Positions 31,252 to 32,998 of a stretch of DNA of 42,970 nucleotides are shown piece by piece. Below the pieces are notes generated by a model. That model searched no databases. It was not told where the DNA came from and saw nothing but the letters and a program-made list of their open reading frames with translations. Source of the stretch: a virus. The translations under genes and the position numbers were made by a program. Location of the stretch: IMG/VR virus record IMGVR_UViG_3300036861_000116, positions 1-42,970 of that record; one strand, written 5' to 3'. Each line of letters opens with the position of its first letter. Position 1 is the first letter of the stretch.

Positions 31252-31433
31252 AGGAGCGGCCTTGAAACTTCTTCCCTACAAGCCGAACGTCAAGTGCTAT
31301 TGCGACTTCTGCGGAAAGTCGGATCACGAGGTTCGGCAAATGGTTGACGGAAAGCGCGCCTTTATCTGTGACGAATGCGTTGATGCGGCTCATTCTCTCG
31401 TCCGCCCGAAACTCAAGTTGGTCAAATAAGGAG
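31252..31433 (+). repeat. Duplicated 182-bp cassette, copy 1
   Basis: Begins AGGAGCGGCCTTG and runs through the next gene's ribosome site. It recurs at 32817-32998 with eight substitutions in the 168-base coding part and no indels. Confidence 0.9.
31262..31429 (+). CDS. Stand-alone ClpX-type zinc-binding domain, copy 1, 55 aa
   Basis: TTG start 31262 after AGGAG. The whole protein is the zinc-binding domain that normally forms the N-terminus of the ClpX unfoldase: CDFCGKSDHEVRQMVDG followed by FICDECVDAAHSLV, with Cys-x2-Cys twice and the conserved GKS-x-HEVR and ICDECV blocks. The AAA+ ATPase part is absent and the gene stops after a short basic tail. In ClpX this domain dimerises and docks adaptors and some substrates, including lambda O. 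A free copy could compete for those contacts (inference). Confidence 0.8.
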   Translation: MKLLPYKPNVKCYCDFCGKSDHEVRQMVDGKRAFICDECVDAAHSLVRPKLKLVK

Positions 31434-31438
31434 TGATC

Positions 31439-31678
31439 ATGGAAAAGGCCGGAAACTACGAAGCACAAGCCGCAGTCGATACACGGATCTGCACTTGCTA
31501 TCCGGGTGAAGGCCCCGATCCGTGTCCACGCAAGTTCGCATTGCGAGATTGCTGGCGAGCGGCAGTACTGGACGAAACGCAGCGCCATATCGTTAGGCTT
31601 AAAAATCAGGACCGCCGACCAGATGAACAGGCGCTCCTTGACTACCTGATGCGCGTCAGAAAGACGCTAGAGATATAG
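31439..31678 (+). CDS. Cys-containing small protein, 79 aa
   Basis: ATG 31439 with AAGGAG at 31428-31433 (GTG 31433 overlaps the ribosome site). An early ICTCYPGEGPDPCPRKFALR segment has three Cys, perhaps a metal site. The rest is helical and charged, ending in DYLMRVRKTLEI. No family is recognised. Confidence 0.6.
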   Translation: MEKAGNYEAQAAVDTRICTCYPGEGPDPCPRKFALRDCWRAAVLDETQRHIVRLKNQDRRPDEQALLDYLMRVRKTLEI

Positions 31679-31688
31679 GAGCGGATTT

Positions 31689-31841
31689 GTGAACCTCTTT
31701 GATCTACTCATTCATAGAGAAATGGAATCACGCCGCCGCCGCTATGCTCCCGAGCGCGAAGAAGCCCGTCGTGAACGTGAGGTCGCCGCACTAGAAGCCA
31801 TCGCACGGGCAGCGACAGAAAAATCGAAGGACAATAGATGA
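31689..31841 (+). CDS. Small Arg/Glu-rich helical protein, 50 aa
   Basis: GTG 31689 after TAGGAG (31677-31682). The sequence is nearly all charged helix (ESRRRRYAPEREEARRERE), likely a coiled coil. It ends with an ATGA overlap to the next gene. Function is unknown. Confidence 0.55.
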   Translation: MNLFDLLIHREMESRRRRYAPEREEARREREVAALEAIARAATEKSKDNR

Positions 31842-32020
31842 CTCCTGCTAAGGTATTGCAAGAATATCGCCGGCAATCTCCCGAGGTAATGCAGTCGCAA
31901 ATGAAGGGCTTCCGTCAGCTATCAATCGCAGAACAGCGTGAGTTGTTATTCTGGATGATGATGCATTTGACGGCTGACGTTAAGGACGTTCATTCGCTTG
32001 TACAAATGGAAAGCAAATAG
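31838..32020 (+). CDS. Small helical protein, 60 aa
   Basis: ATG 31838, ATGA-coupled. Amphipathic helices with Met-rich patch (ELLFWMMMHLTADVKDVHSL). Its stop forms part of the ribosome site of the next gene (TAGGAG). Not recognised. Confidence 0.6.
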   Translation: MTPAKVLQEYRRQSPEVMQSQMKGFRQLSIAEQRELLFWMMMHLTADVKDVHSLVQMESK

Positions 32021-32029
32021 GAGATTGGC

Positions 32030-32134
32030 GTGGATCACCACTTCCTTGCTCTTGTTTTTGGTCTTATGGCTGCAGGCTGGCCACATCTTTTCGGATGGTT
32101 CTTTGGGGTCTACCTTGCGAGCAACAAACGATAA
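32030..32134 (+). CDS. Mini membrane protein, 34 aa
   Basis: GTG 32030 in a junction (AGGAGATTGGCGTG) identical to that before 30895. One hydrophobic span rich in Phe and Gly (FLALVFGLMAAGWPHLFGWF) and a short basic tail (SNKR). Function is unknown. Confidence 0.55.
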   Translation: MDHHFLALVFGLMAAGWPHLFGWFFGVYLASNKR

Positions 32135-32146
32135 AGGAGTGTTTCG

Positions 32147-32350
32147 GTGGCGCATCTTCAATGCATTATCTGCGGCGGTGACCACGAACCGCATCCGATG
32201 ATGTGTGACGACGCGGGCATGGATGAACAGATTGTGCGCCTTGGTGCCCGACGTTGGAATCGACTAACCGCGCAGGTCCATCGCGCGATCTGGGGTGAGG
32301 ATGTGAAGCGCCCAACAAGAACGATTCCATACAAGGGCGATTGGCGATAA
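32147..32350 (+). CDS. Small zinc-knuckle protein, 67 aa
   Basis: GTG 32147 after AAAGGAG. The N-terminus HLQCIICGGDHEPHPMMCDD offers Cys-x2-Cys plus His and a further Cys for zinc. The rest is basic (IWGEDVKRPTRTIPYKGDW). Not recognised. Confidence 0.6.
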   Translation: MAHLQCIICGGDHEPHPMMCDDAGMDEQIVRLGARRWNRLTAQVHRAIWGEDVKRPTRTIPYKGDWR

Positions 32351-32360
32351 AGGAGAGGTC

Positions 32361-32627
32361 ATGTCCGTCATAACGCCCATTCTTTCGGTTGGCTTCGATA
32401 AGAACAATGAAGCAGAGTTCGGCGTTCATCTCAGCAATCTGATTGCTCTGTCCTACGAGGATATGCAGCGCATACGGGCAATGATCCCAGTCGCCATTGC
32501 AGAGTTTGAGCGAATGTGGGCAGACCATAGCTTCCCCGAGAGGGGAAGTGGAGGCCGGGGGCCGAAAGGCCATCTGGGTCCGTCACAGGGGGCTGACGAT
32601 AACTGCCCCCACACAACAAAGGAGTGA
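32361..32627 (+). CDS. Small hypothetical protein, 88 aa
   Basis: ATG 32361 behind AAAGGAG. The first 55 residues look folded (LSVGFDKNNEAEFGVHLSNL), and the last 30 are Gly/Pro-rich and probably disordered (GSGGRGPKGHLGPSQG). The frame ends inside the next junction. Not recognised. Confidence 0.55.
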   Translation: MSVITPILSVGFDKNNEAEFGVHLSNLIALSYEDMQRIRAMIPVAIAEFERMWADHSFPERGSGGRGPKGHLGPSQGADDNCPHTTKE

Positions 32628-32629
32628 TC

Positions 32630-32818
32630 GTGAAGGCGTACCAAGACCCAAACCATGAGGGTAATCGCATCCGACCGAATCTGCGCTGCCTCGGCTGCGG
32701 AAAAATGGGGTGCATCACGGCTTGGGGCCAGTGGTGCTTTGAATGCAACGTCGAGCGGCTTAATCGCATTGATAAGAAGTTTGACCCGCTTCGCCGCGTT
32801 TTTGGCAAGTCAGCATAG
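32630..32818 (+). CDS. Zinc-ribbon protein, 62 aa
   Basis: GTG 32630 after AAAGGAG (GTG 32624 overlaps the ribosome site). LRCLGCGKMGCITAWG then WCFECNVERLNR gives two Cys-x2-Cys pairs separated by about 14 residues, a typical ribbon. The stop TAG starts the next ribosome site. Confidence 0.6.
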   Translation: MKAYQDPNHEGNRIRPNLRCLGCGKMGCITAWGQWCFECNVERLNRIDKKFDPLRRVFGKSA

Positions 32819-32998
32819 GAGCGGCCTTGAAACTTCTTCCCTATAAGCCGAACGTCAAGTGCTATTGCGACTTCTGCGGAAAGTCGGATCACGAGGCTCG
32901 GCAAATGGTTAACGGCAAGCACGCCTTTATCTGTGACGAATGCGTCGAGGCGGCTCATTCTCTCGTTCGCCCGAAACTCAAGTTGGTCAAATAAGGAG
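32817..32998 (+). repeat. Duplicated 182-bp cassette, copy 2
   Basis: Matches 31252-31433 including the ribosome site, TTG start and downstream AAATAAGGAG. The copies lie 1,565 bases apart in the same orientation. Confidence 0.9.
32827..32994 (+). CDS. Stand-alone ClpX-type zinc-binding domain, copy 2, 55 aa
   Basis: TTG start 32827. It differs from copy 1 at four residues (V to A, D to N, R to H, D to E). All four Cys and the GKS-x-HE and ICDECV blocks are kept. Four of the eight base changes are silent, so both copies appear to be held as coding sequence. The first 10 residues (KLLPYKPNVK) replace the longer leader of true ClpX. Confidence 0.8.
   Translation: MKLLPYKPNVKCYCDFCGKSDHEARQMVNGKHAFICDECVEAAHSLVRPKLKLVK

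Follow-up and report, generated by a model that had tools for sequence, protein, structure and literature searches.

The window, that is the whole 42,970-nt stretch of viral DNA analysed here (IMG/VR record IMGVR_UViG_3300036861_000116), carries on its plus strand two genes that each encode only the ClpX C4 zinc-binding domain (ZBD). Both products are 55 amino acids long and both genes start with TTG behind the Shine-Dalgarno sequence (SD) aggag; copy 1 lies at 31262-31429 and copy 2 at 32827-32994. The zinc ligands Cys14, Cys17, Cys36 and Cys39 are present in both copies, and four substitutions (V24A, D29N, R32H and D41E) separate the two proteins. A sequence-only reading had described two such 55-residue open reading frames (ORFs), four residues apart, as ClpX N-domains devoid of the AAA+ part, and this description was confirmed. 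A profile search against the ClpX zinc-finger family PF06689 (zf-C4_ClpX), proposed in that reading as a check, gave significant matches to the two ORFs (E=4.7e-14 and 4.1e-14, 52 bits each against a curated cut-off of 27 bits) and to nothing else in the record. The closest solved sequences are the E. coli ClpX ZBD chains (1ovx, E=7e-12). By tblastn against the window, host-type ClpX aligned through its N-terminal ~46 residues only and no AAA+ match was found; the ORFs stop at codon 56, and the score of the protein against the NCBIfam clpX model was far below the cut-off. Since host-type ClpX matches nothing further in the window, neither an AAA+ part nor a remnant of one is present, and a ClpX pseudogene or a truncated full-length ClpX is ruled out.

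The duplication extends beyond the coding sequence. A 189-nt unit at 31245-31433 (+), spanning SD, start, stop and the SD of the next gene, recurs at 32810-32998 (+) with 94% identity, 1565 nt downstream of the first, and thus amounts to a whole translational cassette set among tiny genes on the same strand. Within the gene the copies differ at eight sites, four of them synonymous and four changing an amino acid. The resulting excess of pS (0.117) over pN (0.031; p=0.064) is suggestive of purifying selection still acting on both copies. An assembly artefact is not favoured as the source of the repeat, as the copies differ at these eight sites and their neighbours differ. Such a duplication is unusual, since each of the 23 other viral records with a lone domain that were examined holds one copy. 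In the two nearest relatives among the loci listed, L218 (67% identity over 55 aa) and L219 (54-56%), the SD, the position of the start codon and the opening 'KLL..NV.CYCDFCG' are conserved. A chance ORF is rejected by this conserved start region and the existence of relatives, together with the Pfam and fold scores and the comparison of pS with pN between the copies.

The genes between the two copies are tiny and have good SDs (31442-31678, 31689-31841, 31838-32020, 32147-32350, 32361-32627 and 32624-32818, all +). Directly upstream of copy 1 lies a 118-aa ORF (30895-31251, +) with two N-terminal CxxC pairs, zinc-ribbon-like, for which the Pfam and PHROGs scans gave no family match, and upstream of this, in the same gene string, an N6/N4 DNA methyltransferase (30154-30876, +; PF01555, E=3.2e-24). 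Further tiny ORFs with zinc-ribbon-like CxxC pairs are found in this string at 32147-32350, 32624-32818, 33229-33360 and 33327-33512; of the CxxC ORFs, those scanned (30895, 32147 and 32624) had no convincing family match. A 70-aa protein with a LysM-like N-terminus (33008-33220; PF01476, E=3.7e-6) follows directly 3' of copy 2. The methyltransferase is preceded by a serine resolvase/invertase gene (29220-29936; PF00239), and the phage has an integrase-like gene as well (33628-34638, -). A sigma-70 promoter scan found one site against 4.1 expected. With the integrase-like gene, an HTH repressor-like gene (38307-38624, -) and ERF and YqaJ recombination genes, the phage looks temperate. Its terminase is closest to those of other viral contigs and of rhizobial and Bradyrhizobium phages, and related terminases are located in the genomes of Inquilinus, Mesorhizobium and other Hyphomicrobiales. 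This kinship makes an alphaproteobacterial host likely, probably one living in soil. The ORF at 40618-41286 (+), formerly singled out as an O-like initiator, indeed matches a phage replication initiation protein family (phrog_1408, E=8.8e-8) and is a candidate client of the protease discussed below.

A profile built from six lone domains recovered 118 viral loci. The 80 best, which were retained, comprised 55 lone domains, with 30 distinct cores, and 25 full or cut ClpX. No full ClpX was encoded beside the lone domain in any of 23 viral records. L218, which like the lone-domain locus of the window has HNH, YqaJ and ERF genes as neighbours, and L219, both from IMG/VR, were found by this profile (A2) only and not by narrower scans; a single-sequence search of viral_contigs and a search of 84,980 species genomes with the two-copy alignment returned no close relatives. 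PHROGs profiles phrog_12435 and phrog_6797 also match over the domain (E=5.8e-9 and 8.7e-11), and lone forms occur in the deposited phages D6, P88, BUCT566 and Cr30. Because many unrelated phages carry it, the lone ClpX zinc domain is a real and recurring phage protein. Of 33 further phage records related by their terminase, only one carried it; its occurrence is thus sporadic, as expected of an accessory rather than a core function. The full ClpX of jumbo phages (Atu_ph07, Phosso and phage G) is a different thing. In the Hyphomicrobiales, 282 of 297 genomes matched PF06689 and 12 had more than one match, the extra matches being mostly fused to other sequence, besides a small number of short lone forms. 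Three host-type loci (L204, L205 and L206), each from a different genome, share a ClpX zinc domain placed behind an N-terminal segment (MRDFRDAKAMA...) and followed by a further C-terminal part without AAA+. Six loci (L074, L078, L238, L246, L258 and L265) hold enterobacterial-type lone domains of the phrog_6797 type with a shared N-terminal segment of ~60 residues; in D6 and P88 proteins of this type carry the label 'carboxylate--amine ligase', apparently a misnomer. The pair in the window is therefore a duplicated member of a widespread and named phage protein class. The earlier remark that no phage factor of this form had been described thus holds for function but fails for existence, given the two PHROGs families, the deposited genomes and an NCBI protein name; no phage function for PF06689 proteins was found in the literature searched, outside of which most subscription papers fell.

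An AlphaFold2 monomer model of copy 2, for which 20 aligned phage lone domains served as input, had a mean pLDDT of 79, and its top Foldseek matches were the E. coli ClpX ZBD structures 2ds5, 2ds6, 2ds8 and 2ds7. Against 2ds5_B the model scored a VIA Z of 6.5 (rmsd 1.6 Å over 43 aligned residues), compared with 3.3 for the first unrelated chain, and the predicted fold thus matches that of the ClpX zinc domain. All four zinc cysteines are kept in 36 of 36 lone domains. The pocket positions F16 and I46 of ClpX are F and L in the window proteins; F16 is kept in all 36 lone domains, and position 46 is I, L or V in 34 of them. Other positions conserved in ClpX are changed in the lineage of the window (L42 to A, C43 to A, P31 to K and A29 to D or N), among them L42 and C43, which are near-invariant in ClpX and both Ala here, and adaptor binding may be altered by these replacements. 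The loss of L42 and C43 would also suit a domain recruited for another role in the string of accessory genes, such as binding of nucleic acid or RNA polymerase, with no link to ClpX. ClpX-type zinc domains have been found fused to sigma factors (PMC11119718) and occur on other non-AAA+ proteins in host genomes, the ZBD genes adjoin other tiny Cys-pair proteins (30895, 32147 and 32624) and the ZBD tail is basic. We nevertheless consider such a recruitment rather unlikely, as the fold and the pocket residues F16/L46 are kept and the core charge of -1 is not unusually basic; charge was in any case discarded as an indicator of nucleic-acid binding, this value not being distinctive.

It is the N-domain of ClpX that selects the adaptors and substrates admitted to ClpXP, among them the phage proteins lambda O and MuA and, in alphaproteobacteria, cell-cycle regulators. 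The best-supported mechanism, which we hold tentatively and at a little less than an even chance, is that the phage domains are decoys that jam adaptor-dependent proteolysis by ClpXP. If expressed, each gene would yield a free N-domain that probably folds round one zinc and, we infer, dimerises like the E. coli domain. This free domain could then compete with the N-domains present in hexameric ClpX for SspB, in alphaproteobacteria also for the CpdR/RcdA/PopA route and SocA, and for N-domain-dependent substrates. Adaptor-dependent turnover would fall while adaptor-free turnover continued, possibly to the benefit of the replication initiator or other phage proteins, or of a host state favouring phage growth. 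Two copies would raise the dose, as a stoichiometric competitor needs. A direct precedent is that isolated E. coli ClpX ZBD at 5-20 µM inhibits RssB-dependent sigmaS turnover by 0.6 µM ClpXP in vitro (PMC7226468), although the molar excess was roughly 8- to 33-fold, which counts against a decoy, as do the sporadic occurrence of the gene and its replaced ClpX-conserved positions. Lambda O, SspB, RssB and trigger factor share one hydrophobic binding pocket on ClpX, in which F16 and I46 are needed for the trigger-factor effect (PMC7804408). With the free domain inhibitory in vitro and these pocket positions kept, a lone-domain protein is most simply read as a decoy. Targets for it would exist: the ClpX N-domain is an adaptor site required for normal growth of Caulobacter, where it serves CtrA delivery, SocB/SocA and DnaX processing (PMC5422525), and each of the 15 host-type genomes checked has SspB.

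Soaking up of adaptors had been one of two suggestions in the sequence-only reading, and with the in-vitro precedent it appears reasonable. The first suggestion, that free domains form mixed dimers with the N-domains of host ClpX inside the hexamer and lock them, found no specific support and seems highly improbable: isolated ClpX ZBD does dimerise (PMC7226468) and 1ovx, the top-scoring PDB entry by sequence, is a dimer structure, but subunits would have to exchange with preformed dimers, and identity to the host ZBD is only about half. A helper role in modification and restriction, in which the domain would act beside the phage methyltransferase by modulating the control of restriction enzymes through ClpXP, is very unlikely as well. 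ClpXP degrades HsdR during restriction alleviation (PMC11109961), and in 6 of 24 records a same-strand methyltransferase gene lay no more than 2 kb away, against 0.55 expected by random placement, but both gene types favour accessory regions and this null ignores their clustering, so that the association is suggestive only. Moreover, the methyltransferase families differ between lone-domain loci, no methyltransferase motif was found beside the Pseudomonas and enterobacterial lone-domain forms, and an inhibitor of ClpXP would raise HsdR, the wrong direction for a phage. Closeness of 2 kb or less to a same-strand methyltransferase was seen at L217, L219, L237, L241 and L242 and in the window (30154-31429), with three unrelated families involved (N6/N4, C5 and MT-A70).

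Another interpretation starts from the C-terminal tail RPKLKLVK (31403-31426 and 32968-32991, both +), which resembles the docking tail RPALRVVK of E. coli SspB and forms a low-confidence end of the copy 2 model (pLDDT about 54). A ZBD dimer with two such tails might fill the pockets of ClpX N-domains, or each other's, and thereby block SspB and other adaptors. Among 3666 ORFs with ribosome-binding sites the tail score was reached by the two window copies and SspB only, though the resemblance was noticed after the fact. The tail contains LKLV, in line with the ZBD-binding motif LKxh proposed from RssB peptides (PMC7226468), and the SspB-type XB peptide alone inhibits turnover of FtsZ and sigmaS (PMC3983244; PMC7226468); L218 ends in PKLMLVK and L219 contains LRVV. 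Against this, host-type ClpX reads IREESKSALVK at the same place, its LVK being aligned by tblastn with that of the tail across a gap of two residues, and the tail could thus be an inherited linker; host SspB tails, in turn, read VVSLDAFRKK rather than RPALRVVK. Inheritance from ClpX is on both counts the simpler account, and we regard an anti-adaptor tail as improbable. By Pfam scan the ZBD proteins contain no SspB domain, and hence not the combination of SspB fold and XB tail that marks an SspB-type adaptor. The stronger proposal, that a docking domain and an SspB-like tail were joined in 55 residues and duplicated to give a bivalent, dose-dependent ClpXP inhibitor and a new class of phage anti-protease, is to be regarded as distinctly improbable.

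Many kinds of phage carry just the N-domain of ClpX, and a decoy, if this is what it is, would offer them a simple and general way to retune the host protease without blocking it. As free ZBD inhibits in vitro, the question is directly testable with the 55-residue protein. Lone ClpX zinc domains were known already by name in PHROGs and at NCBI; what is unusual at the present locus is the duplication.

The lone-domain proteins of the window share with the N-terminal ZBD of ClpX (PF06689; 1ovx and 2ds5-2ds8) the four cysteines, the predicted fold and the pocket of F16 and a hydrophobic residue 46, and differ from it in having neither linker nor AAA+ part, in an identity of about 50%, in the replacement of L42, C43, P31 and A29 and in the SspB-like C-terminus. 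With SspB itself they have in common the C-terminal pattern RPxL[RK]xVK of the XB tail, placed here on a ZBD and not on the SspB fold, while the tails of alphaproteobacterial SspB differ from the E. coli type. Among phage proteins, phrog_12435 (Pseudomonas phages BUCT566, PP9W2 and others; 65 aa) is likewise a lone ClpX zinc domain and close in size, but with only about 35-45% identity, a different tail and another phage lineage, and phrog_6797 (Escherichia phages D6 and P88; 106-110 aa) is a ClpX zinc domain without AAA+ that is extended by some 60 residues at its N-terminus. The NCBI class 'ClpX C4-type zinc finger protein' covers such proteins on plasmids, as a name only and without function. 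Mycobacterial ClpC2 relates to a different ATPase, is antibiotic-binding and also a DNA-binding repressor, and is encoded by a cellular gene, but as a partial homologue of the Clp ATPase ClpC1 that acts as a sponge (PMC10030653) it provides an analogue, in mode of action, of the decoy proposed here.
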